A stretch of 64,000 bases of DNA, from positions 23,303,001-23,367,000 of the forward strand of contig NC_056539.1 of NCBI RefSeq assembly GCF_910596095.1, in the 5' to 3' direction. The notes under the pieces were generated by a model that saw only the letters and a list, made by a program, of their open reading frames with translations, was not told the origin of the DNA and did no database searches. Within the stretch, counting starts at the first letter, position 1. Every line of letters begins with the position of its first letter. This document shows positions 4,897 through 62,959 of the stretch, piece by piece. This stretch comes from Thunnus maccoyii. Taxonomy: Eukaryota; Chordata; Actinopteri; Scombriformes; Scombridae. The position numbers and the translations under genes are program-made.

Positions 4897-5060
4897 TTTT
4901 AGAGGGCATTTTTAAGCCTTTATTATAGCAACAGTTTAGAGCAGACAGGAAACGAGGGGGAGAAAGATGGGGAGGTGACATGCATCAAGCTGCTGCCAGA
5001 ATCAAACCACAGATGTTGTGGTTATCTAGCAAGTGTCTTAACCAGTAAGCTACCAGGTCT
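4897..5060 (-). mobile_element. tRNA-derived SINE remnant
   Basis: On the minus strand the right end reads TAGCTTACTGGTTAA, a good Pol III A box, followed about 30 nt later by GGTTTGATTCTGG, a good B box. Then comes a G/A-poor tail with CCTCCCC and TCTCCCCC blocks. This layout is a tRNA-like head plus unrelated body, as in fish SINEs. Related copies lie at 24767-24925, 38217-38382 and 52525-52672. Confidence 0.6.
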
Positions 5061-6062
5061 TACTTTCACTTTTTTTACTAAGAACAAAAAAGCAAATGCT
5101 TGATCCAGTTTTGACTTTAGCATAGCACATTGAAGCTGTTACAAGACATTAATGATCAAAGAGATGATCACAGATGCCTATGTATGGTCAGGATATAATA
5201 CTTCATGTAATATGATTTTATTAGTCTTAGCTTGTCCAAATTTGATGGGATTAAAATGTCAATGAGAATAGGACTGTTCCAGTTGTTGCAAAATGCACAT
5301 TAAAACAATAAAAAAATATCTGTATAATTTAACAAAGACAAATTTAACAAAAACACAATCAGTTTAAGCAAATAGAACAGAGTTAAGCAAGTCAATATCA
5401 ATTCTAAGTGCACTGAGTGCCATTGTTCACAGGTTAAAATGCCAACTATTGAACTTACTGAAGAACTCAGTAAGATGATGATTTGGTAGGCAGCTCCGTC
5501 AGGCCTGCGTTCATCTTCTTTCTTTATGATGCCATTGAGGTACATTGCATAAAATACAACAGAAAATAAGAAAAACAGGAAATACTGCAACTTAGTGTGG
5601 ATACTCATCAAACTGCAGTACATTTCATACTTACTACATAAAAAGGTTTTGTCTAAGTGACTTTAAAACTACAAGTTATATTAAAAGCTATTGTAATACT
5701 GTACACAATACAGAATTCCTGATAATCTTCCTACCATTAACAAGTGACCTAACCTAACCAAACCATAACCTAACAGCTAAAAAAACATCAGTCATTTGCA
5801 GCTGCTGAAAGTAATTGCTGTTTGCTACCTACTACCTGTATCCTGCTGTATATAGTGCATATTCATGTTGCTACATACAGGATGGGTAAACCATATATTT
5901 CATTTTTCACCTCTGTCTTTATCAATGTGATTAAAGAACTGAGTTCAGCTGGAACAACAATAACTCTCCTCTACAGGAAATTAAAACTCATTACAACTGT
6001 AAAACTGGCCAGAGGCAACGTTACAGTCACACTGATGCAGGAGATAAGATGCAAAATTATCC
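5061..6062 (-). other. R1 3' flank with decayed tail exon
   Basis: This matches the tail-exon and 3' UTR region of the other copies but is damaged in two ways. The small exon encoding the EDVNEDVML-type segment is deleted near 5830. The acceptor of the last tail exon (about 5520-5555), TGTAG in the other copies, reads TGTAT and is followed by a one-base loss. The candidate polyadenylation signal present in the other copies is also missing, because the repeated flank is interrupted near 5090. Confidence 0.6.
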
Positions 6063-9000
6063 TTACTGGGAATTTCTGCGCTTCATCATGTAGATTTTGT
6101 AGACGACCCAAAGCACAGCCACAGATGTGAGGATGATGAGGAAGACCAGAAAGCCAATGAGAGCTTTGTCATTGTCTGCAAAATGAGGGTTATGACAAAA
6201 AAATATCAAAGGGGTGGCATTTATATCAAAGATTAAAATGTGCAGAAATTGACATGTATGGTAAGTCTGAATGAAATGTTTTATCTGAGCAATTTATGGC
6301 ATTAATGAAAACCACACATACAGAGAGTGCGAACACGTTCTGTCTTGGTTTTACTGGAGAGGTATCCGTTGAAAGCAACCACCTGAAAAGACAGAGCATC
6401 CCTTTAACTTGGGAATTATGGAACTCATATAAGTATGAGGAATAAACTGAACAACGCTGTTAAATGAAAAAGTAGGATTATACAAACCTTCACTTTGTAG
6501 GTCGTTAAGTAGCTTAGATCTTTGAATGTAAAGTTACATTGGTCTTGTGACTCCATCTTCTGAATCACATCATCATAACTAAGAGTTGCATTGTATAGTT
6601 TCTCAGGTCCACGGAAATTGTTCACATGAGGACAGGTAACTTTAATCACATTATGCTCTGGAACACTTATCGACAACTTGACAATATCGTCTGGTACTGT
6701 AAGAGAGTGAAAAAAACAACATATTTTCCTTTAGATGCAACACTTTATGCTTATTCACAGTTTAAGTGATTGTTGAGTTTAAAATACCAGCAGTTTAATT
6801 TGATTAAGCTCATTAGTGTTACTGTGTTGATTGTCTTGGGCATCAGTATTTCCTTTAAACGATTAATTAATGACTGAATTTTGAAATGGATTTGCGAAAT
6901 TATTTTAAAACAAAATTCAAAAAATCAAAATTTTGCTTTTTGTTATTCCATTTATCCCACACAGCTGTTATGTGTTGGCCGGAGCTGTGTTAGGAGTCTG
7001 GCTAATCAGAGTGCCTGAAACTGGGGTTGTCAGACTGTCACGATCACAGGTTGTCATTTATCCTACTGACTGGTTGTCAAATGTGGCGAAAGTGAGTCTT
7101 AATACGAGCCTGTCAGAGGGCAGAGGCCAAAAAGGGAGTAAAAGTACAGAAGACAGAGAGAGGAGGAGGAAGGAGATACAAACACATGAAGGTTAGCGTG
7201 CTGCCGATAGCAGGGAACTCTATTGTTGAAACCATGATATACAGTGAATGACAGCCCTCATCATTTACATATTTTGGGTTAGCCATGAAGCCAACACTGA
7301 GCTCAGGGCACAGTTGGAGGACACCAGGCCCGACTCCAAACACCCAGTCCAATGAGTCGATGCTGCAGGAAGGAAGGTAAGACCTGCGTCTTTTCTTGTT
7401 CGTTGGCAAACAAAGGTATTCAATATATGTTGTGGCCTGTTCGTAGTTGGTACAACCGTAAGGCTCAGTGGTATTTAAATCACCTAGATTTAACATATTA
7501 TATCCAGAACTACCTGTGTAGTGTCATAAACACATAAGTAAATGGAATAATAAGCACATTTTAAAAGCCTTTAAGTTAAGTTTTTGGCTCCATTTTGAAA
7601 TTTATTGATTACTTCATTTAAATTAAATTGGAAAGACAATACAAGGGAACATATTACTATTTGGCAAATGTATGATTTTTGTATTTTACTTTGAGTTTTT
7701 TTTTTTTTCAAAAATCTATCATCTGATTAAAATTTAACACTAAAAAAAGTTTATAATTACTACTGTACACGACAGCACGTATGCTTCATTTATAAACAGC
7801 TCAGGACTAACTAAAGCTTGTAGATTTCTGCTCACTGAGTCACTGTGAAAAAACACAGAGAATAACCATTGTTGTTGTTATAATTACTGTGTATTTATGA
7901 TACATGTTTTGTACATGGCTCCTATTTCAGTTATGATTGGAGCTACATTATAAAGTTAATTATAATGGTTTGGATGTGTGTGTGATGTATAAAATACATT
8001 TTCTTATATAATATACAGTATACTATATATTGGTATCATTATTATTATTGGTATTGCTATCAGGGAATGAGATGTTTGATTATCAATATTTATCACCATT
8101 TGATTAAAATAAGACAGGACAAGTAATAATATAAAGTACATAATTCCTAATTATCATTATTATTATGATAAAAAAGTCAGATAAATTGCATTTATAATTA
8201 TGATTACTATCCTTTTCTTAAATAACTAAATAATTCATTACAGTAAATCTTGTGTTGAGTTAATGTCCAAAATTGACATAATTCATTTAGAAACCATATT
8301 AAGCATAATTTAATGTAGCTGTTGTTCAAAACGTGATGTCAGTTTTCTCCCCAAATATTCACAGTTTCAGTGCTGTTGTTAAAACTGTTACTTTTACTGG
8401 CTCGTGGTCATCTTAACTTAATATTCAACTATGAACATTATATAATAAATAGCCTTTTTAGCCCTTTTGAACTAAATATGACTTTATGTAAGTGTTGACT
8501 GTAATATTTTCCAAAGACAGTTTGCTGTTTACTTACCTCCAGGCTCAGTTTTATTTGTAACTAACATTGGTTTGGCAACATTCTTGTTGTTGTAGATGGG
8601 TTGGACTTCACAGGTGTAATCGGTGTATGGTTTCAGTCCAGAAAAATTACATGCTCTTCCTGGTTTCTGTTTGTTAACTGTAGATGTAACAGTTTAGTTT
8701 TCATTAGCTGTTTTTGTTGTCCGATTTAATAACAACAGGAACATATAAAGAGATGTAAAAAGACTGAACCTATAGTGAAGAAATATTTGTTGAGTTACCA
8801 TTAACTGACAAGAATATAGATATCTAAATCATCAATGTGTCACTGCGACTGTAGATCACTGACTGGTCCTGCAAGGTAACACTTTTGTATACACTATGTA
8901 CTACATGGCTGACAGACAGAGAATCAACTAATATCACACTTTCTAAAAACTATTTCAAATAAATAACCAGCAAATCATATGAAGTTCAACAATTTTAGCT

Positions 9001-12000
9001 GTAATCACAGTTTCTCATCATGTTGTTCTATGGAAAAAAGGTAATTAAACTCTATCATTTCAATATTATTTCTGTAACATATTTAATGGATTTTATTTTT
9101 TATTAATAACTTGTTCCAAAGTGTGACTTGTCGTTTCATCTCAGCTTATTTACACCTATTATCCCTCAATGTACTAAAATGTGAGCACAGAAGAAAAAAT
9201 GATATACTTGAGGCCAATGGAAGTTTTAAATGTCTTCATTGTATATTTCACTTGTCATATAAACTGACCAGCAAATTAATCTGCAAGACTCCAAAATATA
9301 CATTGAACTAAAATGGAAAAGGTTTTTAAAATTTTACTTACGTTTTGCATGTTTCTTGTCCGATGTTGAACCCACAGGATGACAACTGCAGTCATATGAA
9401 AGCCCATCAAGTTTGGGGACCTCTTGACATTTCTGACTGGTTGTTGTCCAGCTCAACTCAATGGAGGTATTGGTTGAGTCCCTTTGTGTTGCTATATTAA
9501 GATCTGTTGAAACACATCACACATCTTTAACACTGAACTGAGTAATCTGGTCTTTAGTATCTTAGATTACAAGCTTTCATTGCAACAACATACCACAGTC
9601 AATCTTGAACCGGATAGCAGGTGTGTTTTTTATGATGACATCATTTTCCTTGATCTGACCAGTACAGGTGTAGTCTGTGAAAGGCTCCAGCTCAGACACT
9701 TTCTTGGGATTATTGTAAGAATCTGAGGGGACAGAAGGGTGACAACATTTCTCAATCAACTAATATCTGTACCTCAGAATTTAAGATCAGTTTCACAGAG
9801 CTCACAAAGCAATACCTCACCAACACCTCCCTCTCATACCAGAAGACACAATTTATGTCACTGAAGTTATTAGAAAAATATGTTTTTCTACCCCTGCAAA
9901 AATTACTCCACTTTACATCTTCATCTCTTTTACACTATGAGTACAAAACAATGGAAATGCAGATTTGAATCACCATCTTTATCCATGTAAATCTATTTAT
10001 AATGTTGCTGACAAACAAAGTCTCCCTACTTTCAGTCTGACCACTTACCAGAACAAATGTAATCAATGGTGAGATAGATGCAGTTTGGAGGTAAATTTGC
10101 TTCTATTTTTGCAGGAAGTTCAGTGGGAGGAATCAGATTTATTTCATTTGAATTTAAAAATTCAGCTGAAAAAGAGAAAAAAGCACATATAAAACATGAT
10201 GAAAGAAGGTCTACATAACATGCATTTAAAAATACAGGTAGACTATATTATACATACCAGCACTGATGTGTTGAGTGAGACTAAAGTTCACACACTTTTC
10301 TTGAGTGAAGGTTGTAGTCAAATTTGTGCAAATGTCATCATAACCAGGTCTGATACAGAACATTTTATTGTCACTTAGGCATCGCATGGCTGTAAGATTA
10401 TTTATTTGCACAGAGCTGATGTTCCAGTCACTCTTGTAACAAAGATATCCAGGGATGCAGCTGCTACGTTTAATGTCATCTTCAGCTGAAATACAGAAGT
10501 GATGCACAAATGTCTCTCCCATTTTCACTCATTTCTAAAGTTAAAAGAAAAATACAATACAACAGTATGAATTATTTTTACTCACTCATTTCATTTGTCT
10601 TCACTGTAGTTTTACTATCACTGTGGTTACAGATTATTTCTGTGCCAGCATGGTCAAATGTCACATTATGCTCGTAGACAGTACAGGGCTTCAGGTGTCT
10701 GATATACGGTGAGCTTTGATCGAAGTGCTGAACATCAACTTGGCCTTCTTCTTTAACATTTACGGTGTAGGTGTCAAGGGAAGAGTTTATGAACCTGATC
10801 TGGAAGCCAGACTCGTGGGGTGTAACAGTGTAAGAACCTGCACAAACAATACACAGTAAAACCTGTTAGTAAGATGAACCACCTGACATTTATTTTAACC
10901 TTGTTCATACAGGTGTTGAAAATCTACCTGTCTATGCCGAGGATCATTCTGTACACTCCACTTTCAACATATTCATTGTAAAGTAAGAGAGAAATACAAA
11001 CATTAAAACAACATTAGATGGATTATCTTTTAAAGTGATACTCACACTGTGGAGGTGGAGGGGCTGCTGCAGGGGATGGAGGACACATTCAAATGAAATT
11101 AGAAAGGAATAAAAAATACAAAAAACATTAACATTTAGTTACACAACACAAGTAGTTTAAAATACTCCCAAAGCACACTAAAGATAAAGTATGTGCCTTT
11201 AGCTTATAGAGTATTTGTAACCCTTTTATCCACAGTGCGAGTGTATGCACAACACAATCTTATTACAATCCTATATAAATGAAAAAATTCCAACCTTTGG
11301 TGGTAGGAGTCACTGTGGTGTTGGACTGGGTGATTGGAGGTGAGGTCTGAGTTAGAGTGCTGATTGCCTGAGAGACTGTTGGCAATCAGCACTCAGAAGC
11401 ACCAAATAATATCTTTCAGACAATGTCATGTTCAAACTGCCTCCTTACTATCACTACCAGTAACCTACTTGCTCCTGTGAGGGAGAAAGCTGCTATTATC
11501 AGCCCTTATGAAATGTGACTGTTTAAAATCCAAACTTTTTAAAAATACATTTTGTGTTTAAATTCTCCACACTACCTTTGTTTGAGTGAGGGTTTGCCCA
11601 AAACAAAAATAAATACATGTAGATATTGTTACAACTAAATCCTGTGATCCTTGAATCACGTAATTCAAATTATCCAAACTAAACATTCAAAACACATCAA
11701 CATGATAAGGAATACTGATCAAGATTTTTTTTTGTCCCCATACATGGAGAATGCAATGAGATATTCTATTGTTGTAATGTTTCTTCTTTCTTACAGTATA
11801 TCTTGACAAAGAGGATTACCAGAGCAAATCTCATCATCAGTTCAGAAATCAGAAATCTGACTTTGTTTATAACTTGCTGTGTAGGCATTCAGACAAATTA
11901 GACAGAAAGCAAAAACATGAATATATTTCAATATCATGAATGAATACAGAATGAAGCAATATGACTAAATATAATGTGCAGAAACATTATGTGCTGTATG

Positions 12001-14809
12001 ATCACTGGGACCATCCCATAATTTGAAGGTCAATGTTTAATTAACTGGTTAAAGAAACAGGACAGAAAGAAACTGAAAAAAATCCCCCCAAAATAAGTTA
12101 AGATTCAAAAAGATCAATTTCTTTTCTTTGCACTATATGAACATCACACTACTTCGCATCGGCATTAGTTTAATTAGTTGCATAAGTATAGGGTTTAAAT
12201 CGTGAATAATATTTGGCAAGAGGTTGATTGTGGTGGGAGAAGTTTGAGTTTCATACTGCTGAGCAAACTTTTTTTTTTTTCAAACAAAATTGCACATTAC
12301 ATGTTACATATACAAATAACTATATATATATATATATATCAGAGGAGGCTGGTCCATAGAGGTAGAGGAGGTTGCTCCTCCTCTGTTTTTTGAGAGGCAA
12401 GAGGGAGATCAGTTCTCCTTGGTATACTTTAACACAATTTTTCATGGTAACTTGCAGGTAGGTTGTTATAACCATCCTGGAGAAAGAATGTTCTTCTGTG
12501 GATTTATTATTTAGGCCATCTCAGGTGCTTCCTCATGTAATCCCAGATTAACTCCATGATGTTGAGATCAGGGCTCTGTGGGGGCCATACCATACCATCT
12601 GTTGCAGGACTCATCATTCTTCTTGCTGCTGAAAATAGTTCTTTATGACTCTAGCTGTATGCTTGGGGTCATTGTCATGTCATGAATAAATTTGGGATCG
12701 ATCAGACACCTCCCTGATGGTATTGCATAATGGATAAGAATCTAAACATCTAGGGTGCCTGAAACTTTTGCACAGTACTGTAGATAAATTGATAGAGTAG
12801 CATATTAGAAAATTAATTCTAAGGCAAATTGCTGACTATATTTTTAAACACATCAGTAAAACATTTTATCTGCTTCTATTAGGCTACTTGCAGGCTGTAG
12901 AGCAGACATCATTGTCACTAACGAATGAACAACATGTGCTCTCTTTCTCAGCCACCTTGTGGTTCAAATGAAATGTCTTTTGTTTTAACTGGAATCCTCT
13001 CACACAACATACTGAAATGCCGTTATACAAAATTATATATTTTCAAAAGTAACTGTGAACACTTTTCAATAGTTTATATAAAAGGATTTCACAATACTAT
13101 ATTGGACCATTTTAACTGTATATGAGCACATTTTACCATAATGTGTGAAAGCTTTTCAGTAGTTTTCATGAGAGCGTTTCAGTCGTGTATGTAAGCGTAT
13201 AATTTTTCAGTTGTTTGTGTGAGACTGTTTCAGTTGTGTATGTAAAGCATTTCACTTGTATATGTGTGTTGTTTTCAGTATACTATGTGAATGATTTTGG
13301 TTTCATGTGTGTATGTGAGATGAAAAGTATATATATATGTATGGTAATTCTGAATAATGTCCCTAATGGCCCCTCATAGCTTTGGTGCTACTATGAACAT
13401 GAAGACATGAGACAGTGAAAAGTGAGCTTGAGGTAAAAGGAGGCTGAGGTGAAGGTATGGCACATGGTAAAGCACAGCTGATGGTAGAAGTAACATTATA
13501 AACATAAGAATTACAACTGAATGTTATATGTTAGGAAAATGTATTTGTGGTCACTCACCTGCTGGATATTGACCTGGAATAACAAAAGAGAAAGATATTT
13601 ACACACTTGTAATGAAGGGATGTATACGACTACTATACAGAATAACATAAATATACACACATCACAAACAGGGTTTGTTTTATTAAAACATCCATTTCTA
13701 TCTAAACTTGCTGTAGCTTTGCAGTGATATCAGTGGAGGTGTATGAGGTACAGGACAGAGGATAAGGTTCGCACCAAAGAAACAAGCATACCGTAGGTTT
13801 TTTTCTATTTTTTCCATTGGAATGAATACAGAATGAAGCAATATAACTAAATATAATGTGCAGAAACATAATGTGCGTATGTCCGATCACAGGGGACATT
13901 TTGCGGTACATACTGGCTTTGGCGTTGCTGTGACAATGAAACAGCATAAAGCAAAAAGTGAGCGGATTAATTGAGTAATTAGAATGTAGAATTATAAACA
14001 TCACGAAAACAATGAAATGTAATATATGAAGTAACATTGTTAACCTGGAATTACAAAAGAGAAAAGTATAAATTATTATTGCATTTGTTATGTTTTATTA
14101 AACCTGTTTGGGTATAAAAAGCAGGGCCGACAACTTAATTAGATGACTTCAGTCATGGTCATAAACCCAGCTACTTTTGCAGCTCTAGTCTGACGTCTGT
14201 TGAAAAACTCCATCATCAACATTTCCTGATGAGGGTCTGAGGGCCGATACATTGTCAGTAAAGTGAGAACAAACGATCAACAGTGTGCAGTAATTTTTGG
14301 TTCCTTCATAATTTTTTCTAAAGTTTAACAATGTTTAATAACATAATGTTAATAATAATGATAATATAGTACAGGGGGTGTAGCTCAAATTGCTTTACAA
14401 TAGAGTGAAGAAACAAGAAAATAAAGAAATGTAAATACTGTGCGATTAAAACCAATCAATCAAATGAGTAGCAAACAAAAGAGGCAGCAAATAGTAAGAA
14501 CAAATATGCTTAGTACTTAGTACTTAGTAATGATAAAACAGATACTCTGTTGAAAAAATGTATTCACACTGTGAATTTGGGAGAACAAGAAAATGCACTT
14601 AAATAAAAAGCATTACTGTATATGAATAATTTTAGAGACACTTTTACAAATACAAAAGGCATGTGTTCTGTTACTAATAGTACTTTATCTATCCTATCTT
14701 TCAGCACCTTATATTTTATTTGAAATAATAAATAAAGTTACTTACAGTCAGCCACACCAATGATCGCAGCCCAGAGGAGCAGGATCTTGATACTACAGAA
14801 ACCCGCCAT
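6063..14809 (-). CDS. ptprc-like: R1: CD45-like receptor without phosphatase domain, tail truncated
   Basis: Type I membrane receptor related to the CD45 (PTPRC) ectodomain. Exons in gene order: 14746-14809 (signal peptide [20 protein letters not shown]), 13559-13573, 11295-11375 (Thr/Ser/Pro-rich), 11046-11063, 10586-10837, 10258-10485, 10049-10165, 9594-9722, 9342-9503, 8537-8677, 6488-6696, 6322-6382, 6067-6175 (membrane). The ectodomain borders except the last are phase 1 and every exon is open. CD45-type marks are [51 protein letters not shown] and the membrane segment [19 protein letters not shown] followed by YKIYMMKRR. No PTP domain is visible. The next tail exon is deleted, so reading through the membrane exon gives a stop two codons on (6063) and about 529 aa. 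It could be a functional short-tailed form or a decaying copy. Confidence 0.72.
7172..7967. other. R1-specific intron segment
   Basis: In R3, R4 and R5 the intron between the last two FN3 blocks runs directly from a GAGGAAGAGGAAGG motif into GTTTGGATGTG. In R1 about 0.8 kb of unrelated sequence lies between these two points. Open frames exist on both strands but none resembles a known protein. The segment may be an insertion in R1 or ancestral sequence deleted before the other copies arose; no terminal repeats were recognised. Confidence 0.4.
12411..12782 (-). mobile_element. Tc1/mariner transposon remnant (truncated)
   Basis: The minus strand near 12545-12590 encodes PQSPDLN-type and [15 protein letters not shown] residues, the DDE-region signature of Tc1 transposases. 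The right end AAACTTTTGCACAGTACTGTA is the terminal inverted repeat seen complete in the R3 copy (32897-33440). The other end is missing here. Confidence 0.65.
13130..13340. repeat. Degenerate ~30-bp minisatellite in R1 intron 2
   Basis: Imperfect repetition of TTTTCAGTTGT / GTGTATGTAA / GTGTGAAAGC-type blocks. The same stretch is found in the other copies and is longest in R5 (60700-61030). Confidence 0.5.
14343..14515 (-). mobile_element. 3' end of an old L2-type LINE in R1 intron 1
   Basis: The block GGGGGTGTAGCTCAAATTGC and the following 130 nt are shared with the 3' ends of longer LINE fragments at the same intron position in R2, R3 and R4. Here the coding part has been deleted. The low-coordinate side carries an AAT-rich tail, as L2-like LINEs do at their 3' ends. 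Confidence 0.55.
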
Positions 14810-16030: not shown

Positions 16031-16084
16031 ATTAATACATTTCGCCACATCACATCATCATCATTACTCCTTTTTAACAGTTTT

Positions 16085-20696: not shown

Positions 20697-20905
20697 AAAC
20701 AATAAAAAATATCTGTACAATTCAACAAAGAGAGGACAAAAAACACAATCAGTTTAAGCAAATAGAGCAGAGTTAAGCAAGCCAGGATCAATTCTAAGCG
20801 CACTGAGTGCCATTGTTCACAGGTTAAAAGGCCGACTATTGAACTTACTGAAGAACTCAGTAAGAGTAAACGATGATTTGGTAGGCTGCTCCGTCAGGCC
20901 TGTGT

Positions 20906-35135: not shown

Positions 35136-35208
<73 letters not shown>

Positions 35209-47141: not shown

Positions 47142-47173
<32 letters not shown>

Positions 47174-50100
47174 TAGCGCCATATCACAACAGAAGTCATC
47201 TCAAGGCACTTTTCACATAGAGCAGGTCAAGACCGTACTCTTTAATTTACAGAGACCCAACAATTCCCCCATGAGCAAGCACTTGGCGACAGCGGTAAGG
47301 AAAAACTCCCCTTTAACGGGTAGAAACCTCAAGCAGACCCCGGCTCTTGGTGGGCGGCCATCTGCTTTGACCGGTTGGGTTGAGAGAGAGAAAGAGAGAG
47401 GGAAAGGGGGAGGGGGGACAGAAGAAAAACAATCACAACAACAAACAACAACAAGCACAAGCAGCAACAGCCAGGGAAGGATGCCATCAGGACTGTGAAG
47501 GACCGCGAAGGTTCGGCCCGGGAGTCAGGTTTTTCTGTGAGATGAGAAAGCACAAAAAACTCCGGGGAAGAAGCAAAGTTAGTGACATGCATTGATGTTA
47601 CATGAATGCATACAGATGGAGAGGAGGAGGAGGAGAGAGGAGCTCAGTGCATCATGGGAAGTCCCCCAGTAGTCTAGGCCTATAGCAGCATAACTAAGGG
47701 CTGATCCAAGGCGAGCCTGGTCGGCCCTAACTATAAGCTTTATCAAAAAGGAAAGTTTTAAGCCTACTCTTAAACATAGAGAGGGTGTCTGCACCCCGGA
47801 CTGAATCCGGTAGATGGTTCCATAGAAGAGGAGCCTGATAGCTGAAGGCTCTGCCTCCCATTCTACTTTTAAAGACTGTAGGGACCACCAGTAAGCCTGC
47901 ATACTGGGAGCGCAGTGTTCTAGTGGGATAATACGGTATTATGAGCTCTTCAAGATATGATGGTGCCTGACCATTAAGGGCTTTGTAAGTTAGGAGAAGG
48001 ATTTTAAATTCTATTCTAGATTCTACAGGAAGCCAATGTAGTGAAGCTAAAATGGGAGAAATGTGGTCTCTTTTTCTAGTTTTAGTCAATACACGTGCAG
48101 CTGCGTTCTGGACCAGCTAGAGAGTCTTTAGAGACTTGTTAGGGCAGCCTGATAATAAGGAATTGCAATAATCCAGCCTAGAAGTAACAAATGCGTGAAC
48201 TAGTTTTTCTGCATCTTTTAGGGACAGGATGTGCCTGATTTTTGTGATATTACGTAAGTGAAAAAAGGCAGTCCTTGAAATTTGATTTATGTGAGAGTTA
48301 AAGGACATATCCTGATCAAAGATAACTCCCAGATTCCTTACGGTGGTGCTGGAGGCCAGGGTAATGCCATCCGGAGTAGCTATATCATTAGATAATGTGT
48401 TTCTAAGGTGTTTAGGGCCAAGCACAATAACTTCAGTTTTATCTGAATTTAGTAGTAGAAAATTGCAGGTCATCCAGGTCTTTATGTCGTTAAGGCATGT
48501 TTGGAGTTTGTTTAACTGATTGGGTTCATCTGGCTTCATTGATAAATATAATTGGGTATCGTCTGCGTAACAATGAAAATTTATGGAGTGTTTCCTAATA
48601 ATATTACCTAAAGGAAGCATATATAAGGTGAATAGAATTGGTCCAAGTACAGAACCTTGTGGAACTCCGTGTCTAACTTTTGCCATCACGGAGGATTCAT
48701 CATTCACATGTACAAACTGAAATCGGTCTGATAAATAGGACTTAAACCAGGTTAATGCAGTTCCTTTAATGCCAATTAAATGTTCCAGTCTCTGCAAAAG
48801 GATTTGATGGTCAATTGTGTCAAATGCAGCACTAAGATCTAACAGGACAAGTATAGAGATATATGAGCATCACACTACTTCATGCATTGGCACTGAATGT
48901 CACTAGAGAATGAAAATAGCTATTACAAATTAGTTGCATAAATGTAGGTCTTAAATAGTGAATAATATTTGGCAAGAGGTTGATTGTGGTGGGAGAGGTT
49001 TGAGTTTCATACTGCTTAGCAAACATTTTATTTTCAAACAAAATTGCACATTACATATTTCATACACAAAAACTATATATACACCCTAAAAGGTATATGT
49101 GAATTGACCTGTTAATCATGTAATTTTTTTCTCACATAGTTTATTTGTGTGTAGTTGGTGGATTAGATGTGTTTTTGGGTTTTTTTGCATTAAACCTTAC
49201 TAAATTTTGGTAACTACTGCAATTTCCCAGAACTTGACTCAATTGCACATCACATGTTGAATATTTATAAGTCAATATAGTTTTGACCTGTTTTCCATTA
49301 GTAATTTGGTCAGGCCACCTTAGGTTGGGAACCACTGGACTAAACTAGCTAACTGTATTTAAAGTAGTTGAAACTTGCTCCAGTAGCTACAACAGTAACA
49401 TGCTGCTTACACACTGATGCTTCAGTATTAATAATCTAGTGATGTCATAAATAAAAAATATATCAGTCAGATAGATGAAATGAGTACTTTTACTTTAATA
49501 CTTTAAGTACATTTAGCTGCTATTACTTATGTACTTTTACCTAAGGAGGATTTTTCATATAGGACTTTTACTTGTAATGGAGTATTTTAACTTAATATAC
49601 TTAACATTTCATGGCAATAATTCAACGTAATTTTTTACCTGTGTATTCTGTAGCCATTCTTTGTTTAGCTTGTTAAGGATAGGAACTGTTTTTGGTGTGA
49701 GGCAGCTGTTCATATGAATATCCAGGTCATTACAATTGAGACCCCCAAACACAACACACTAAATGGTTGGGAGTATAAAGCACAGGACTGACAACTTAAT
49801 TGGATGATTTCAGTTATGGTCATAAACACAGCTACTTTTTCAGTTCTAGTCTGATGTCTGTTGATTTAAAAAAAAAAAAAAAAAATCTTGCCGGTAACAC
49901 AAAATTCTTGCATTCAAAAAAGTTTTGTGGGCAGGTGCATCGGATCATAAATTGTGACCAAAAAATCAATCATCAACATTTCCTGATGAATGTCTGAGGG
50001 CCGATACATTGTCAATAAAATGAGAACAAGTGATCAACAGTGCGCAGTCATTTTTGGGTCTTTCATAATTTTTCAATGTTCAATAACAGAATGTTAATAA

Positions 50101-51453
50101 TAATAATAATAATAAAGGGGGTGTAGCTCAAATTGCTTTACATAAAGTGAAGAAACGAGAAAATAAATAGAAACAAAAAAAACAGGCAATTAAGGCAAGT
50201 GCAAATACTGTGTGATAAACCAATCAATCAAAGGAATAGCAAACAAAAGAGGCAACAAATAGCAAGAACAGGTATTCTAAGTACAATAAAATATGTAAAA
50301 GATAAGAAAAAACAAAGGAACAGTGACAGTTAGTTAAACACAATGTTGAATAAATAAGTTCTAAAAATGTTTACAGAATTTGCATCTCTTCTAGCCTTTG
50401 GTAGGGAATTCCATAGTTTTGGTTCATAGTTAAAAAAGGTTGAGCTGCTGTGAAGGATTATAAATCAACAAAGAATTAGAAATATGGGTCGGTCCCAAAC
50501 CATTGAAAGCCTTTTAAACAAGTAAAATAACTTTAAAATCAATCCTAAAAGACACTGGGAGCCAGCGCAGATTACCTAAAACTGGGGTGATATGTGCTCT
50601 CTTTTCTTGTTCTAATTAAAAGCCCGGCAGCAGAGTTCTGAATTAATTGTAGTTTATCAATGGATTGTTTTGGAAGACCGGTGAAAAGAGCATTACAGTA
50701 GTCTAATCTACTTGAAATAAACCCATGAACAATTTTTTCAACATTTTGTTGGCATCTTTTATCTCTTAAATGAAAGAAAGCAGCTTTGGTCACCCTCTTT
50801 ACGTGGGATTTAAAATTTCAGTCTGAATATAGGATAATGTCCAGGCTCATGACTTCTGATTTAATGGGTCAGTACATTTATTAAAATCTGATGAGTCTTC
50901 AACAGTCGATAATGGAAAAGTAACACATACCAAGGGTTGTAGTGAGATGCTGATCACTGGAAGTAGACTTGAGAGTAGGAAAAAAGTGTCTGTAATGTAC
51001 CTTTATTTACTGGATATTTAGATTAAGTTGTTTATGATGTTCCAGAGCTGATGTTTTACTTTTTCTGTATATCTATTAAAAGTCTATTCAAAATGAATCT
51101 ATTTTTAACATATTTGAATGTACTTAGCCAAAAAAATTGAAATGTGAAATTTAAATCTCTATATGTGGTATGAAACATAGCAGCTTTTGTCACTTTATTT
51201 GAAGAGAATAAATTGGCTATAGTTCCTACTGTGGATTTGGGAGAACAAGAAAATGCACTTAAATAAAAAGCATTAATGTAATGTCGTAGAAGAATACAAA
51301 ATGCATCTGTTTTGATACTAATATAACTTAATCTGTCCTATGCTTCATCATCTTGCATTTTATTTGAAATAATAAATAAGGTTACTTACAGTCAGCCACA
51401 CCAATGACCCCAGCACAGAGGAGCAGGATCTTGATACCACAGAGACCTGCCAT
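39691..51453 (-). CDS. ptprc-like: R4: CD45-like receptor without phosphatase domain, arginine in membrane segment (532 aa predicted)
   Basis: Exons in gene order: 51390-51453 (signal peptide), 46680-46694, 44628-44645 (Pro-rich), 44147-44419, 43813-44046, 43604-43720, 43098-43226, 42846-43007, 42043-42183, 40782-40990, 40617-40677, 40359-40470 (membrane), 40039-40076, 39691-39716. All are open. The Thr/Ser exon present in R1, R3 and R5 is absent; unrelated repeats occupy its place (about 44720-46500). Exon 44147-44419 has seven extra codons (a QIGGKAI-type insertion shared with R5), and exon 43813-44046 has two extra codons. The membrane segment reads FVIRLLVHIIIILISVAVF: Arg and His replace neutral residues of the other copies. 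The tail ends IYANAPES. The LINE in the first intron explains the gene's greater length. Confidence 0.72.
44720..46500. other. R4-specific intron block replacing the Thr/Ser exon
   Basis: It diverges from all other copies after TTAACATTTAGTTA. Contains two diverged direct repeats (about 44990-45180 and 45425-45560, both with CCTAGGC-CTGAT and TTGTATTTTCACTTTATTTT) and two GTTGTAACACCTTG blocks. No coding exon or acceptor in the right phase was recognised. Sequence similar to 44800-45000 also occurs at 49080-49330 and 60200-60380, so at least part is a dispersed repeat. Confidence 0.45.
47142..48859 (-). mobile_element. L2-type LINE, 5'-truncated, inserted only in R4
   Basis: The minus strand encodes reverse transcriptase motifs in order: TWFKSYLSDRFQFV, VPQGSVLGPILFTLYM, the catalytic YADDTQLYL, then SRLDYCNSLLSG, and after an in-frame TAG (48117-48119, where family members usually have Gln) PILASLHWLPVESRIEFKIL and KSRLKTFLF. 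The 3' end has TATATAGCGCC and a (ATCA)n tail. The flanks share TATATGA (47135-47141 and 48860-48866), a target-site duplication; in R1 the empty site reads CACTATATGAACATCAC. The coding frame is otherwise well preserved, so the insertion is younger than the fragments in intron 1 and postdates separation of R4 from R1 and R3. Confidence 0.85.
49080..49330. repeat. Dispersed intronic repeat
   Basis: A block containing TTGACCTGTTAATCATG and TTTATTTGTGTGTAGTTGG. It resembles 44810-45000 (R4) and 60210-60380 (R5). No coding capacity; family not recognised. Confidence 0.45.
50085..50860 (-). mobile_element. L2-type LINE fragment in R4 intron 1
   Basis: Encodes KIVHGFISSRLDYCNALFTG and SIDKLQLIQNSAAGLLIRTR; orthologous in position to the fragments in R2, R3 and R5 and frame-broken. 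Confidence 0.7.
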
Positions 51454-53776: not shown

Positions 53777-56700
53777 TCATCTTCTTTCATTCTGATGCCA
53801 TTGAGGTACATTAGCATAAACTACAACAGAAAATAAGAAAAACAGGAAATACTGCAACTTAGTGTGAGTACTCGTCAAACTGTGCAGTGCACTTCATACT
53901 TACTACATAAAAAGGTTTTGTCTAAGTGACTTTAAAACTACAAGTTATATTAAAAGCTATTGTAATACTGTACACAATACAGAATTCCTGATGATCTTCC
54001 TACCATTAACAAGTGACCTAACCTAACCTAACCATAACCTAACAGCTAAAAAAACATCAGTCATTTGCAGCTGCTGAAAGTAATTGCTGTTTGCTACCTA
54101 CTCTAAGACTAATGTAGGAAGAACAGGACAGCTTAAGTTTACTCACTGGCTGTTGACTCAAGCATCACATCGTCATACACATCCCTGAGGAGAAAATACG
54201 TGGTGAAGTTTGGCTTCAGAGAAATGCATATAATTTTGTATCCTGCTGTATATAGTGCATATTCATGTTGCTACATACAGAATGGGTAAACCATATATTT
54301 AATTTTTCACCTCTGTCTTTATCAATGTGATTAAAGAACTGAGTTCAGCTGGAACAACAATAACTCTCCTCTACAGGAAATTAAAACTCATTACAACTGT
54401 AAAACTGGCCAGAGGCAACGTTACAGTCAAACTGATGCAGGAGATAAGATGCAAAATGATCCTTACTCGGAATTTCTGCGCTTCATCATGTAGATCTTGT
54501 AGACGCCCCAAAGCACAGCCACAGATGTGAGGATGATGAGGAAGACCAGAAAGCCAATGAGAGCTTTGTAATTGTCTGCAAAATGATGGTTATGACAAAA
54601 AAAAAATATCAAAGGGGTGGCATTTATATCAAAGATTAAAATGTGCTGAATGAAATGTTTTATCTGAGCAACTTGTGACATTAATTAAGACCACACATAC
54701 AGAGAGTGTCAACACGTTCTGTCTTGGTGTTACTGTAAAGGTGTCCGTTGAAAGCAACCACCTGAAAAGACAGATCATCCCTTTAACTTAGGAATTATGG
54801 AACTCATATAAGTATGAGGAATAAACTGAACAACACTGTTAAATGAAAAGTAGGATTATACAAACCTCCACTTTGTAGGTTGTAGAGTAGCTTAGATCTT
54901 TGAATGTAAAGTTACATTTCTTTTGTTTGTCCGTCTTCTGAATGACATCATCATTATAACTAAGAGTTGCATTGTATAGCTCCTTAGGTCCACGGAAATC
55001 TTCCACACCACAGATTACTTCAATCACATTATGCTCTAGAACACTTATGTTAAACTTGGAAATATCATCTGGTACTGTAAGAGAGTGAAAAAAACAACAT
55101 ATTTTCCTTTAGATGCAACACTTTATGCTTATTCACAGTTTAAGTGATTGTTGGGTTTAAAATACCAGCAGTTTTAACACTGATCAAGCTCATTAGTGTT
55201 ACTGTGTTGATTGTCTTGGGCATCAGTATTTCCTTTAAACGATTAATTAATAACTGAATTTTGAAATGGAATTGCGTAATTATTTTAAAACGGCTTTCAA
55301 AATTTTATTTTTTGTTTTTCCATTTATCCCACACAGCTGTTATGTGTTGGCCGGAGCTGTGTTAGGAGTCTGGCTAATCAGAGTGCCTGAAACTCAGTGG
55401 GGTTGTCAGACTGTCACGGTCACAGGTTGTTATTTATCCTACTGACTGGTTGTCGAACGTGAAGTCTTAATATGAGCCTGTCAGAGGGCAGAAGCCAAAA
55501 ACGGAGGAAAAGTAGAGAAGATGGAGAGAGGAAGAGGAAGGTTTGGATGTGAATGTGATGTATAAAATACATTTTCTTATATAATATACAGTATACTATA
55601 TATTGGTATCATTATTATTATTGGTATTGCTATCAGGGAATGAGATGTTGTTTGATTATCAATATTTATCACCATTTAATTAAAATAAGACAGAACAAGT
55701 AATGATATAATTATCATTATTATTATGATAAAAAGTAAGTTGCATTTATAATTATGATTACTATCCTTTTCTTAAATAATAACTAAATAATTCATTACAG
55801 TAAATCTTGTGTTGAGTCAATGTCCAAAATTGACATGATTCATTTAGAAACCATATCAAGCATAATTTAATGTAGCTGTAGTTCAATACGTGATGTCAGT
55901 TTTCTCCCCAAATATTCACAGTTTCAGTGCTGTTGTTAAAACTGTTACTTTTACTGGCTCGTGGTCATCTTAACTTAATATTCAACTATAAACATCATAT
56001 AATAAATAGCCTTTTTAGCCCTTTTGAACTAAATATAACTTTATATAAGTAATATTATATATGTAATATTTTCCAAAGACAGTTTGCCGTTTACTTACTT
56101 CCAGGCTTAGTTTTCTCTTTAACTTCAGTTGGTTTGGCAACATTCTTGTTGTTGTAGGTGGGTTGGACTTCACAGGTGTAATCGGTGTATGGTTTCAGTC
56201 CAGAAAAATGACATGTTCCTCCTGGTGGCTGTTCGTCAACTGTAGATGAAACAGTTTAGTTTTCATTAGCTGCTTTTGGTGTCCAATTTAATAACAACAG
56301 GAACATATAAAGAGATGTAAAAAGACTGAACCTATAGTTAAGAAACATTTGTTGAGTTACCATTAACTGACAAGAAAATAGATATCTAAATCATCAATGT
56401 GTCACTGCGACTGTAGATCACTGACTGGTCCTGCAAGGTAACACTTTTGTATACACTATGTACTACATGGCTGACAGACAGAGAATCAACTAATATCACA
56501 CTTTCTAAAAACTATTTCAAATAAATAACCAGCAAATCATATGAAGGGCAACAATTTTAGCTGTAATCACAATTTTTCATCATATTCTTCTATCGAAAAA
56601 AGGTAATTAAACTCTTTCATCTCAATATTATTTCTGTATCATATTTAATTGATTTTAATTTTTCTTTAATAACTTGTACCAAAGTGTGACTTGTCGTTTC

Positions 56701-59700
56701 ATCTCAGCTTATTTACACCTATTATCCCTCAACATGCTAAAATGTGAGCACAGAAGAAAAAATGATATACTTGAGGCAAATGGAACTTTTAAATGTCTTC
56801 ATTGTATATCTCACTTGTCATATAAACTGACCAGCAAGTTAATCTGCAAAACTCCAAAATGTACATTGAACTAAAATGGAAAAGATTTTTAAAATTTTAC
56901 TCACAGTTTAGATGTGTCTGATCCAGTGGATGACAACTGCAGTCATATGAAAGCCCATCACGTTTGGGGACCTCTTGACAGTTCTGACTGGTTGTTGTCC
57001 AGTTCAACTCAATGGAGGTATCGGTTAAGATGCTTTGTGTTGCTATATTAAGATCTGTTGAAACACATCACACATGTTTAACACTGAACTGAGTAATCTG
57101 GTCTTTAGTATCTTAGATTACAAGCTATCATTGCAACAACATACCACAGTCAATCTTGAACTGGATAGCAGGTGCGTTTTTTATGGTGACATTGTTTTCC
57201 TTGATCTGACCAGTACAGGTGTAGTCTGTGAAAGGCTCCAGTTCAGACACTTTCTTGGGATTATTGTAAGAATCTGAGGAGACAGAAGGGTGACAACATT
57301 TCTCAATCAACTAATATCTGTACCTCAGAATTTAAGATCAGTTTTAAACAGTTTAGATTTAGACATTCAAAGCAAAAACCAATATTCTATTCAAAACTGA
57401 TTCACAGAGCTCACAAAGCAATACCTCACCAGCACCTCCCTCTCATACCAGAAGACACAATTTATGTCACTACAGTTATTAGAAAAATATGCTTTTCTAC
57501 TCCTGCAAAAATTACTCCACTTTACATCTTCATCTCTTTTACACTATGAGTACAAAACAATGGAAATGCAGATTTGAAACACCATCTGTATCCATGTAAA
57601 TCCATTTATAATGTTGCTGACAAACAAAGTGTCTCTACTTTCAGTCTGACCACTTACCAGAACAGATGTAATCAATGGTGAGATCAGTGCATTTTGGAGG
57701 TAAATTTGCTTCTATTTTTGCAGGAAGTTTAGTGGGAGGAATCTGATTTATTTCACTTGAATTTAAAAATTCAGCTGAAAAAGAGAAAAAAGCACATATA
57801 AAACGTGATGAAAGGAGGTCTACATAACATGCATTTAAAAATACAGGTAGACTGTATTATACATACCAGCACTGATGTGTTGAGTGAGACTAAAGTTCAC
57901 ACACTTTTCTTGAGTGAAGGTTGTCATCAAATTTGTGCAAATGTCATCATAACCAGGTCTGATACAGAACGTTTTATTGTCATTTGGGCATTGCACGGCT
58001 TCAATATTATTTATTTGCACAGAGCTGATGTTCCAGTCACTCTTGTAACAAAGATATCCAGGGATGCAGCTGCTAAGTTTAATGTCACCTTCAGCTGAAA
58101 TACAGAAGTGATGCACAAATGTCTCTCCCATTTTCACTCATTTCTAAAGTTAAAAGAAAAATACAATACAACAGTATGAATTATTTTTACTCACTCATTT
58201 CCATTGTCGTCACTGTAGTTTTATTATCACTGTGGTTACAGGGTATTTCTGCGCCAGCATGGTCAAATGTCACATTATGCTCGTAGTCAGTACAGGGCTT
58301 CAGGTGTATGATATTATGTGTTGTTATGTTTGGATTGGAGTGCTGAAAAATGGCTTTGCCTCCAATCTGATTTTGGCCTTCTTCTTTAACATTTACGGTG
58401 TAGTTGCCAGGGGAAGAGTTTATGAAGTTGATCTGGAAGCCAAACTTGATAGGTGTAACAGTGTAAGAACCTGTACAAACAATACACAGTAAAACCTGTT
58501 AGTAAGATGAACCACCTGCCATTTATTTTAACCTTGTTCATATAGGTGTTGAAAATGTTCCTGTGTATGCCGAGCATCATTCTGTACACTCCACTTTCAA
58601 CATATTCATTGTAAAGTAAGAGAGAAATACAAACATTAAAACAACATTAGATGGATTATCTTTTAAAGTGATACTCACACTGTGGAGGTGGAGGGGCTGC
58701 TGCAGGGCGTGGAGGACACATTCAAAAGAAATTAGAAAGGAATAAAAAATACAAAAAACATTAACAATTAGTTAAATAACACAAGTAATTTAAAATACTC
58801 CCAAAGCACACTAAAGGTAAAGTATGTGCCTTTAGCTTATAGAGTATTTGTAACCCTTTTATCCACAGTGCGAGTGTATGCACAATACAATCTTATTACA
58901 ATCCTATATAAATGAGAAAATTCCAACTTTCGGTGGTAGGAGTCACTGTGGTGTTGGACTGGGTGATTGGAGGTGAGGTCTGAGTTTGATTGCCGGGTGC
59001 CTGAGAGACTGTTGGGTTGCTGGTGGAAGTGATTGTGGGTGTGGTCTCATTTGAGGTGATTGCAGGATTGACATTGGCTGGAGGATGGAGATCATGGAGG
59101 TCACATTCTGGCAGAAATACTCTATTTTGCAACAGCCTTACCTAACATGATGCCTTACTTCCATTTCAGGAAAATATCATGCCAAATGCAACGCTAATGT
59201 GGCAAACAAAACTGTAAACTGAGGCTGAATACATTACCATCAGATGCAGTAGTTGGAATGGTCTGAATTGAAGTGTTTGAGGAAAGGGTTGAGGAGGTGA
59301 AAGTTGGGCTGACTACTGTAGATGAGTTCAAATTTGCGGTAGTGCGTGCAGGTGAGGTGGTTGAAACAACATCTACATTCCAAGAATACGAAAAATCAGG
59401 ACAGACATAATATCACAATAACATCTCCTACATCACTGAAGATGTTTCATGTAGCAGTTTGCTTCTCATGGTGCTAAACTATTTAATTTGTTATTGCTTC
59501 TTGTCTAACCTTCCTCATTAATGTCAACTGCACATTTGTCTTAAAATTCAAAAGGTAAGAAATGATAAAAAAAAAAAAAACAGTAGCCCTGAGGAGCAGA
59601 TGAGGTAAGACAGAGTTAAGTAGGACTATGAAGCTAGAATAGTGGAACTAGCACTTAGTTTTGTATTAGTTGTAGAAGAAAAAAACCTTTGGACCTACCC

Positions 59701-62700
59701 TGTAATGCAGTTTCTATTTGCATAGTAAAATAATTAGGCAGAAGTTCAACCAAGATGACTAATTCAGCCCAGAACTTCTTACACACACATATTATTTCTC
59801 CATAGACTGAACACCCATTTCGAAACACAAATAAAAACAAACCCAAATAAAAACGAAAAACAAACAATAATGACCAATAGAGTTTAATATGAGCAACAAA
59901 CTCTCAGTAAACAAACCAAAAAATACTACATGTCTGAAAAGGAGCAGGTGGAAGTTAATAATTTATTAATTCTGGGTTATTGGTTAAATTATTTAGCATC
60001 ATAAATATATTTAAGACTGGTTGTCTCTCCTGGTTGAACTTCTGCTTTTGCTGTCATCTACAGTAGCATCTGTCCCCTCCCCTAATAAGTAATGTGAGAT
60101 GGACACCAGTTTGACTGATATCAGAGACTCATTATATTGATGAAGGTGCAAACAAGATGCACAATAGTAACTATAATAGTATATATATATATATATAATA
60201 TTATATTGGTTATATTAGTTTTGACCTGTTTATCATGTAGTAATGTTTTCCTCCTACAGTTTATTTGTGTGTAGTTGGAGTTAGATGTGTTTTGGGGGAT
60301 TTTTTTGTTGTTTTTTTGGTGTTAAACCTTCCTTAATTTTGGCAACTATGACGGTTTCCCAGAACTTGGGTATCCACTTTTTGTGCAAAGAGTACATAAT
60401 GTCCATTTGAAGGCTGTGTTCATTTCACATAGTTTTGGACAAGATGCTGGCTTTGTATAAGGGGCAGATAGGGACATTATTCAGAATTACCATGCATATA
60501 CATGTACTTTTCCTCTCACATACACATCAGCATCATGTTAAGCAAGGATTACTTTACTGTCAGCCAGTTCAGTTTGTGACATTATGTGTGACAACTTTAT
60601 TCAAGTGAAAGTCCTGTATTCAAAACGTAACATTTTACTTGTATGTCTGTGAGGTTTTCAGTATAGTATGTGAATTAATTTGGTTTCATATGTGTATGTG
60701 AAAGGAACATTTTCAGTTGTGCATTTGAGCACATTTTACTAGTATTTGTGAAAGCTTTTCAATGGTTTTTATGAGAGCTTTTCAGTTGTGTATGTAAGCG
60801 TGTAATTTTTCAGTTGTTTGTGTGAGAGTGTTTCTGTTGTGTATGTAAAGCATTTCACTTGTATGCGTGTGTGGTTAGCACATTTACTAGTATGTGTGAA
60901 AGCTTTTCAACAGTTTTCATGAGAGCGTTTCAGTCGTGTATGTAAGCGTATAAGTTTTCAGTTGTTTATGTGAGAGTGTTTCAGTTGTGTATGTAAAAGC
61001 ATTTCACTTGTATATGTATGTTGTTTTTAGTATACTATGTGAATGATTTTGGTTTCATATGTGTATATGAGAGGAAAAGTACATGTATATGCATGGAAAT
61101 TCTGAATAATGTCCCTAATGGCCCCTCATAGCTTTGGTGCTACTATGAACATGAAGACATGAGACAGTGAAAAGTGAGCTTGAGGTAAAAGGAGGCTGAG
61201 GTGAAGGTATGGCACATGGTAAAGCACAGCTGATGGTAGAACAAGACATTATAAACATTAGAATTACAACTGAATGATATATATTAAGAGAATTTAGTTG
61301 CAGTCACTCACCTGATGAATCTTGACCTAGAATAACAAAAGAGAAAGATATTTACACACTTGTAATGAAGGGGTGTATACGACTACTATACAGAATAACA
61401 TAAATATACACACATCACAAACAGGGTTTGTTTTATTAAAACATCCATTTCCATCTAAACTTGCTGTAGCTTTGCAGTGATATCAGTGGAGGTGTATGAG
61501 GTACAGGACAGAGGATAAGGTTCGCACCAAAGAAACAAGCATACCGTAGGTTTTTTTCTATTTTTTCCATTTGAATGAATACAGAATGGAGCAATATAAC
61601 TAAATATAATGTGCAGGAACATTATGTGCGTATGTACGATCACAGGGGAAATTTTGCGGTACATACTGGCTTTGGCGTTGCTGTGACAATGAAGCAATGC
61701 CAAAGCAAAAAGTGAGCAGATTAATTGAGTAATTAGAATGTAGAATTATAAACATCACGAAAACAATTAAATGTAATATATGAAGTAACATTGTTAACCT
61801 GGAATTACAAAAGAGAAAAGTATACATTATTATTGCATTTGTTATGTTTTATTAAACCTGTTTGGGCATAAAAAGTAAGACTGACAACTTAATTAGATGA
61901 CTTCAGTCATGGTCATAAACCCAGCTACTTTTGCAGCTCTAGTCTGATGTCTGTTGATTTAACCTTGATTTATTTATCCTTTGGCACGGAATTACATAGT
62001 TTTGGTGCAAAGTTAAAAAAAAAAGGTGAGCTGTGGATTTTCTTATTTGTGTGATTGTTTGTATTTTTTTAAAAACGGCAGCAGAGAATCAAAGAAGCCT
62101 TGAAGGATTATAAAACGACAAAGAATTAGTAACGTAGGCCGGTCCCAAACCATTAAGAGCCCTGTAAACAAGTAAAAGAACTTTAAAATCAATCCTAAAA
62201 GACACTGGGAACTAGCGCAGGTTAGCATAAACTGGGGTGATATGTTCTCTCTTTCTTGTTCTAGTTAAAAGCCCGGCAGCAGAGTTCTGATTTAATTGAA
62301 GTTTATCAATGGATTGTTTTGGAGGACCGGTCAAAAGAGCATTACAGTAGTCTAATCTACATGAAATAAACCCATGAACAAGTTTTTTGGCATCTTGTTG
62401 AGATAGGAACAGCCATTCCTTTACAATATCTCTTAAATGAAAGAAAGCTCCTTTGGTCACCTTCTTTATGTGTGACTTAAAATTCAAGTCTAAGTGTAGG
62501 CTAATGTCCAGGCTCATGACTTCTGATTTAATGGGTCAGTGCATTTATTAAAGGCTGGTGAGTCTTCAACAGTTACCAAGGTCTACATCGATTGCATTCC
62601 TTACAAAGTGAGAGAAATCCAATGCTAAACACCAAAATAAATATGCTTTATATATTGTAAATATGTAATGATAAAACAGATACACTGTTGAACAAATATG

Positions 62701-62959
62701 TTCCCATTGTGGATTTGGGAGAACAAGAAAATGCACTTAAATAAAAAGCATTAATGTGTATGAATAATTTTAGAGACACTTTTACAACACCTTAGAGGAA
62801 TACAAAAGGCATGTGTTCTGTTACTAATACTACTTTATCTATCCTATCTTTCAGCACCTTATATTTTATTTGAAATAATAAATAAGGTTACTTACAGTCA
62901 GCCACACCAATGATCCCAGCACAGAGGAGCAGGATCTTGATACTACAGGGACCTGCCAT
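53777..62959 (-). CDS. ptprc-like: R5: CD45-like receptor without phosphatase domain, most complete copy (627 aa predicted)
   Basis: Exons in gene order: 62896-62959 (signal peptide), 61312-61326, 59238-59372 and 58928-59077 (mucin-type, 45 and 50 codons, rich in Thr/Ser/Pro, with Asn-glycosylation sites NET, NQT and NTT), 58679-58696 (Pro-rich), 58195-58470, 57867-58094, 57658-57774, 57145-57273, 56905-57054, 56099-56239, 54866-55074, 54701-54761, 54467-54575 (membrane [19 protein letters not shown]), 54147-54184, 53777-53820. The whole joins to 628 codons without a stop. The layout signal-mucin-cysteine-rich module-FN3 modules-membrane is that of CD45, and the two Thr/Ser exons recall its alternatively spliced A/B/C exons. 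The tail has DVYDDVML then IYANVPQW and a stop; no phosphatase follows. The first mucin exon is seen only in this copy. Confidence 0.78.
59238..59372 (-). other. R5-only mucin-type exon
   Basis: 135 nt, phase 1 on both sides, between ATGTAG and GTAATG splice sites. It encodes a Thr/Ser-rich segment beginning VVSTTSPARTTANL and ending IPTTASD. Being symmetric, it can be skipped without changing the frame, like the variable exons of CD45. It is also listed within R5. Confidence 0.7.
59560..60200. other. R5 intron, no feature recognised
   Basis: AT-rich, with an A-run at about 59567 and an (AT)n run at about 60180-60198. No coding or transposon signature was recognised; the 60210-60380 part is the dispersed block also seen at 49080-49330. 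Confidence 0.4.
60700..61030. repeat. Expanded minisatellite in R5 intron 2
   Basis: Roughly 30-bp units alternating TTTTCAGTTGT, GTGTATGTAAGCG and GTGTGAAAGC. A block of about 170 bp (AGTATGTGTGAAAGC to GCATTTCACTTG) occurs twice in tandem (about 60735-60865 and 60887-61015). R1 has it once (13140-13262). Confidence 0.65.
61975..62520 (-). mobile_element. L2-type LINE fragment in R5 intron 1
   Basis: The longest coding relic of the ancestral intron-1 LINE: DLNFKSHIKKVTKGAFFHLR, LVHGFISCRLDYCNALLTG and SIDKLQLNQNSAAGLLTRTR are continuous. Its 3' end and AAT tail are missing here, unlike in R2-R4. Confidence 0.72.

Follow-up and report, generated by a model that had tools for sequence, protein, structure and literature searches.

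CD45, the product of PTPRC, has two intracellular protein tyrosine phosphatase (PTP) domains and, at its N terminus, a mucin-like stretch subject to alternative splicing; in mammals NEK7 is linked to PTPRC, and in human the two genes lie on the same strand. Phosphacan, a phosphatase-less splice form of the intact PTPRZ gene, is an example of a receptor PTP ectodomain without the catalytic half, and CD45 pseudogenes are reportedly present in the channel catfish, to judge from the title of a 2005 report by Kountikov et al. Here we describe a stretch of 64,000 nucleotides from Thunnus maccoyii (contig NC_056539.1, positions 23,303,001 to 23,367,000 of the forward strand; hereafter, the window), in which self-comparison revealed five minus-strand units between the last nek7 exon and the window end. 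Sequence comparisons support the view that these units are tandem-amplified paralogues of ptprc (CD45) without the catalytic half.

The locus shares with CD45/PTPRC a signal exon, a microexon, a putative mucin stretch, a region of FN3 type, a membrane segment and the adjacency to nek7; it differs from it in that no PTP domain was found in the window and in having a short and unrelated tail, five tandem units and copies that diversify. The catfish pseudogenes, compared by title, would likewise be extra fish copies derived from CD45, whereas the array copies, whose frames are open, show signs of positive selection. In phosphacan the catalytic half is missing from a splice form of an intact gene, while in the array the loss lies in the gene copies. 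Since catfish CD45 pseudogenes are in print, as their title indicates, there may be nothing new in truncated CD45 copies from a fish; a CD45-derived array that is intact and diversifying would be a novelty. A phosphatase-less CD45 array in fish was not reported among the matches listed from the open-licence literature, taken at the level of titles and abstract starts; a sea bass paper names a 'receptor-type tyrosine-protein phosphatase C-like' in one table row and an Atlantic salmon paper gives CD45 on chromosome 10 with seven transcript variants. A parallel for the pattern of change is primate CD45, whose common ectodomain exons, according to PMC4379584, outpaced an intron, pathogens being proposed as the cause; there, however, one full-length gene was compared between species, while here phosphatase-less paralogues are compared within one genome.

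The relationship to CD45 was evaluated from the predicted proteins, the units being numbered g1 to g5 along the window. The g3 protein alone, compared with solved structures, found the CD45 chain 5fn8 as the best of four matches (E value 1.1e-5), and a profile of four proteins placed three chains of PTP receptor type C (5fn8, 5fmv and 8vse, E values 1.4e-9 to 6.2e-9) as the best of 14 listed sequences, the next being ROS at 6.8e-6. Pfam fn3 was above its cut-off in all four full proteins, and with the structure matches this indicates FN3 modules homologous to d3-d4 of CD45. When a human CD45 sequence was used, from which the residues of 5fn8 differ, hhalign gave a probability of 98.9 over 249 columns, continuing through the membrane helix, and the real score was reached by none of 500 shuffles, both for each of the five proteins and for each of the five membrane-plus-tail segments. 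The last 65 residues of g3 scored 78 (0/500 shuffles as high), and in the membrane segment of g1 23 of 38 residues were identical to human CD45. An unrelated FN3 receptor, such as ROS or a cytokine receptor, was rejected because CD45 is ranked first and the match spans the membrane helix. Other matches were taken as chance: Filamin, DUF7248, Ig_ILCR1, DSCAM FN3, Y_Y_Y and Pur_ac_phosph_N (E values 0.0011-0.54), being below the curated cut-offs or generic FN3, Filamin-B in the g3 structure search (1.2), and prion and antibody chains with the four-protein profile (0.049-0.36).

The catalytic half was searched for throughout the window. The human CD45 cytoplasmic region found no tblastn match better than an E value of 1.5, and a six-frame motif scan found no HC.AG..R and no WPD.G.P; six KNRY-like words were present, all on the plus strand and each with a stop within 15 residues. 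As a positive control, the same search recovered 177 of 180 planted 40-aa PTP pieces: 60/60 at about 80% identity, 60/60 at about 65% and 57/60 at about 50%. Thus, the two PTP domains of the CD45 receptor phosphatase were not found within the window, in agreement with the original prediction that the array has no PTP core. The same prediction had proposed a ptprc paralogue that lost its catalytic half and was amplified beside nek7, which is supported by the structure matches, the nek7 exon and this controlled search. The features, with the exons of each gene numbered E1 to E15, are the following:

5511 to 14809, minus strand: gene 1 (g1), CD45-like receptor of 529 aa, tail exons lost; E1 14809-14746, E2 13573-13559, E3 11375-11295, E4 11063-11046, E5 10837-10586, E6 10485-10258, E7 10165-10049, E8 9722-9594, E9 9503-9342, E10 8677-8537, E11 6696-6488, E12 6382-6322, E13 6175-6067, no E14, E15 relic 5553-5511 with acceptor AT
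20906 to 24471, minus strand: gene 2 (g2), signal, membrane and tail, 91 aa, without E3-E12; E1 24471-24408, E2 22283-22269, E13 21703-21586, E14 21303-21269, E15 20949-20906, frame kept across E2-E13
26216 to 36253, minus strand: gene 3 (g3), full CD45-like receptor of 558 aa lacking the phosphatase; E1 36253-36190, E2 34228-34214, E3 31501-31421, E4 31187-31176, E5 30967-30716, E6 30615-30388, E7 30295-30176, E8 29791-29663, E9 29572-29411, E10 28747-28607, E11 27556-27345, E12 27240-27180, E13 27024-26907, E14 26624-26587, E15 26259-26216
39664 to 51453, minus strand: gene 4 (g4), CD45-like receptor of 532 aa without mucin exon, tail end YANAPES*; E1 51453-51390, E2 46694-46680, E4 44645-44628, E5 44419-44147, E6 44046-43813, E7 43720-43604, E8 43226-43098, E9 43007-42846, E10 42183-42043, E11 40990-40782, E12 40677-40617, E13 40470-40359, E14 40076-40039, E15 39716-39664 (53 nt, including bases beyond the first stop)
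53777 to 62959, minus strand: gene 5 (g5), full CD45-like receptor of 559 aa lacking the phosphatase; E1 62959-62896, E2 61326-61312, E3 59008-58928, E4 58696-58679, E5 58470-58195, E6 58094-57867, E7 57774-57658, E8 57273-57145, E9 57054-56905, E10 56239-56099, E11 55074-54866, E12 54761-54701, E13 54575-54467, E14 54184-54147, E15 53820-53777
28607 to 29572, minus strand: E9-E10 of g3, the equivalent of CD45 d3, fast-evolving by pairwise omega; in the alignments with human CD45 it corresponds to the d3 part
26907 to 27024, minus strand: E13 of g3, CD45-type membrane exon by its shuffle-tested score against human CD45
26216 to 26624, minus strand: E14 and E15 of g3, a short tail that contains IYANV and no PTP, from the gene models
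600 to 710, plus strand: last coding exon of nek7, the syntenic anchor, convergent with the array; the 36-aa translation of 600-707 matches Nek7 chains (best E value 2.3e-13), and the stop codon is at 708-710

The gene model was built on g3 and then lifted exon by exon to the other copies. Self-comparison, lift-over and gene models bear out the five head-to-tail minus-strand genes that had been proposed from the sequence: the signal exon (E1), the microexon (E2) and the membrane exon (E13) are present in all five, the ectodomain and membrane exons identified are open in the joined models, all five predicted proteins are open when their exons (at most 15 per gene) are joined, and the first ATG of g5, at 62959, coincides with the end coordinate then given. 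One unit without ectodomain had been implied as well, and g2 is that unit, keeping only E1, E2, E13, E14 and E15. A mucin/FN3 ectodomain had been claimed for four genes; this stands for E4-E12, found open in g1, g3, g4 and g5, but not for the mucin-like stretch, a single 81-nt exon rich in S, T and P (E3) that is present in g1, g3 and g5 and was not found in g2 and g4. GT-AG was found at 57 of 57 modelled introns, 14 of which belong to g3, with boundaries picked by splice sites, and 43 are lifted; this count follows the final choice of the E10 acceptor, shifted by 6 nt in all copies because the first choice read AT in g1 and g5, before which 41 of the 43 lifted introns were GT-AG. The exon lengths of E1-E14 differ among copies only by multiples of 3. 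In a gap count on the nucleotide alignments, many gaps were not multiples of 3 (e.g., 8 of 14 between g3 and g5), and we relied on exon lengths since the aligner breaks net in-frame changes into pieces. A tblastn search with three array proteins gave 70 pieces at E values up to 1e-3, none of them outside the modelled exons.

To follow how the copies have changed, exons and introns of the four full copies were compared, leaving out sites that lay 6 or fewer columns away from a gap. Variable sites were 201 of 1284 in exons (15.7%) and 168 of 2487 in introns (6.8%; odds ratio 2.56, Fisher p 2.8e-17), pairwise intron divergence being 2.8-4.1%. The Ka/Ks ratio (omega) was calculated on 365 of 451 codons, excluding those near gaps: pairwise values were 1.33-2.21 at kappa 1 and 1.56-2.60 at kappa 2, and the pooled value at kappa 2 was 1.84 (bootstrap 1.31-2.85, with 0.1% of 2000 replicates at or below 1). 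A codon model, its null kappa drawn from a grid of six values, rejected omega = 1 on each of the three unrooted trees (2dlnL 18.0, 19.0 and 20.3; p 2.2e-5, 1.3e-5 and 6.6e-6), with omega 2.43 on the third, ((g1,g5),g3,g4). By segment, on unmasked alignments, omega exceeded 1 in six of six pairs both for d1 (E4-E5) and for the d3-equivalent E9-E10 (2.27-3.63), and in five of six for E11-E12. The copies also appear to be mosaic: among sites that split them two and two, E5 has 10 of the pattern g1g3|g4g5 and 1 and 1 of the other two, whereas E8 has 6 of g1g5|g3g4 and 1 and 0 of the others (Fisher p 0.0025 on two patterns, one third-pattern E5 site being left out), a difference that fits an exchange of exon cassettes among copies.

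The explanation that we favour, tentatively and at somewhat under an even chance, is that of a young tandem family of ptprc paralogues, keeping the front of the gene and working mainly as membrane-anchored decoys. The copies would have lost both phosphatase domains and kept the signal peptide, a short mucin stretch, ectodomain d1 to d4 and the CD45 membrane helix, followed by a new short tail. Transcribed in leukocytes, they might offer decoy ectodomains to pathogen CD45-binding proteins, which would gain no control of a phosphatase; point changes and exon-cassette exchange would then diversify the copies in an arms race, and variation of d1 and d3 would be favoured by selection, in accord with the pattern observed. 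With more reserve, though still as a plausible proposal, the array may be read as an expressed multi-gene family of CD45 ectodomain decoys that diversifies by positive selection and cassette exchange against CD45-targeting pathogen proteins. Such proteins are described in two papers, in which human adenovirus E3/49K and cytomegalovirus UL11 bind the CD45 ectodomain (PMC4379584) and E3/49K cross-links CD45 D3 (PMC11537708). A search of IMG/VR for viral relatives of the profile with two peptide patterns gave 33 pattern matches, none of which encodes a relative. If the decoy explanation is true, a genome with several catalytically empty CD45 ectodomains that outpace neutral change would offer strong natural evidence for an arms race at the outer surface of CD45 in fish as well, and the use of each ectodomain as bait would give a direct route to the opponents. 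On a practical side, neither 'ptprc-like' annotations in fish nor CD45 antibodies necessarily mark the phosphatase.

Several observations weigh against the decoys. We know of no pathogen ligand in fish, and the broken tail of g1 and the missing ectodomain of g2 indicate that some decay is under way. Ks in E4-E12 (0.061-0.083) is above the intron divergence (0.028-0.041), so that the exon excess is not all amino-acid change, and gene conversion, mainly in introns, could lower their divergence and add to the contrast. In the one-sided Fisher test, Ka exceeded Ks at p<0.05 in only three of six pairs at kappa 1 and four of six at kappa 2. Not all the ectodomain is fast: omega for E6-E7 was 0.53-0.93 in five of six pairs and above 1 in one, and for E8 it was above 1 in two of the five pairs in which it was defined, one pair being undefined (both unmasked). 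Since the copies are mosaic, the tree-based tests and the pooled pairs are not independent. Moreover, the membrane exon E13, whose lengths of 109, 112 and 118 nt among copies reflect in-frame changes, varies about as much as the ectodomain among the four full copies (14/36 residues), and ligand binding gives no explanation for this.

The short tails raise the question of signalling. They had been predicted to end within about 35 residues of the membrane, and the measured lengths past the membrane window, 12, 37, 38, 31 and 40 residues from g1 to g5, agree with this; tail exons had also been thought common to the five genes, which holds for g2, g3, g4 and g5 but not for g1. There, no counterpart of E14 exists, and the relic of E15 has lost its acceptor (AT for AG) and carries a 1-nt deletion, so that the g1 protein ends with RRNSQ* past the donor of the membrane exon. 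The tail of g4 stops early, with YANAPES*. The tail of g3 is not similar to the human CD45 juxtamembrane region, its score being matched by 179 of 1000 shuffles. In the tail of g5 (53777-54184, minus strand) we observed YDDV-x7-YANV, the first tyrosine being found only in this copy, a spacing that we take to be like that of an immunoreceptor tyrosine-based activation motif, except that V stands for L/I. As a separate observation, an alternative frame of E15 (26170-26259, minus strand, and the equivalents in other copies), reading by eye ..LNGIIKKEDE..AAYQII in g3, outruns the spliced frame in g2-g5 and in g4 continues through the point at which the spliced one meets its stop; the tail reading frame is thus not secure. 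The idea that E15 is a decayed CD45 juxtamembrane exon, which the longer frame resembled by eye, was dropped because 518, 247 and 536 of 1000 shuffles scored as high in three versions.

It is unlikely, in our opinion, that the copies are primarily signalling receptors, in which the ectodomain would be joined to a short new tail with a tyrosine that recruits SH2 proteins, adaptor recruitment replacing the phosphatase output. The motif IYANV of g2, g3 and g5 (IYANA in g4, none in g1) presumably is a pYxN motif of Grb2 type, and also YxxV, and YDDV gives g5 a second tyrosine 11 residues before YANV. However, a lone YxN in a 30-residue tail can arise by chance, the tail is lost in g1 and the V in g4, the other E15 frame is longer, and the tail exons are no less variable than the adjoining introns (E14 1/27 and E15 4/28 usable sites, against 37/558). 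In a family of decoys, the tail tyrosine may still add weak signalling in the copies retaining YANV.

We consider it just as improbable that the array consists of clustered CD45 pseudogenes, which might resemble those of the catfish and would be too young to have acquired stops. The broken tail exons of g1 and the absent ectodomain of g2 speak for it, as does the possible precedent known by its title, and an intron divergence this low leaves little time to decay. Neutral decay, on the other hand, predicts equal divergence in exons and introns and omega of about 1, while the exons are more than twice as variable and omega is above 1, and the in-frame length differences of E1-E14 and the intact splice sites are not those of decaying genes. 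In a simulation of random substitutions in E1-E13 of g3, 645, 107 and 6 of 5000 replicates were free of stops at 60, 120 and 200 sites. For the ectodomains the pseudogene explanation was rejected because exons outpace introns, and copies that are functional rather than dead are supported by the signs of selection.

A more doubtful alternative is that the copies modulate CD45, binding the full receptor in cis, or its lectin counter-receptors, and tuning its clustering, so that rapid change would follow self-recognition. The CD45-type ectodomain and membrane helix are in keeping with this, and forced CD45 dimers lower phosphatase activity, according to PMC11537708; yet diversification above neutral is more easily explained by an outside opponent.

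As regards the neighbourhood, the nek7 linkage of the CD45 locus is present here, in convergent orientation; among the best 10 of 22 listed sequences for the translation of 600-707, nine are named Nek7 and one is a fusion construct with an incomplete name. On the minus strand only about 4.8 kb lie downstream of g1 before the convergent nek7 end, which leaves little room for PTP exons after g1. That the units are alternative 5' cassettes of a single ptprc gene with its PTP exons outside the window, as the absence of the parent ptprc from these 64 kb might suggest, is therefore very improbable, given that no PTP exon was found in those 4.8 kb, that g2-g5 have their own terminal exons and that AATAAA occurs 288-292 nt past E15 in all five units.

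Other features of the window concern repeats. Fragments of the RLDYCN.LL.G type, which we take to be reverse-transcriptase-like, occur on the minus strand in the first introns of g4 (47727-48869), g2 (23568-23990), g3 (35590-36030) and g5 (62212-62535), and are probably remnants of a non-LTR (long terminal repeat) retrotransposon carried along with the duplications. Just downstream of g2 lies an inverted 434-bp pair, 99.5% identical (19527-19960 and 20270-20702), which represents an inverted duplication, or a conversion, of very recent date. Finally, intron 2 of g5 contains a 148-bp tandem repeat in 1.9 copies (60728-61013).

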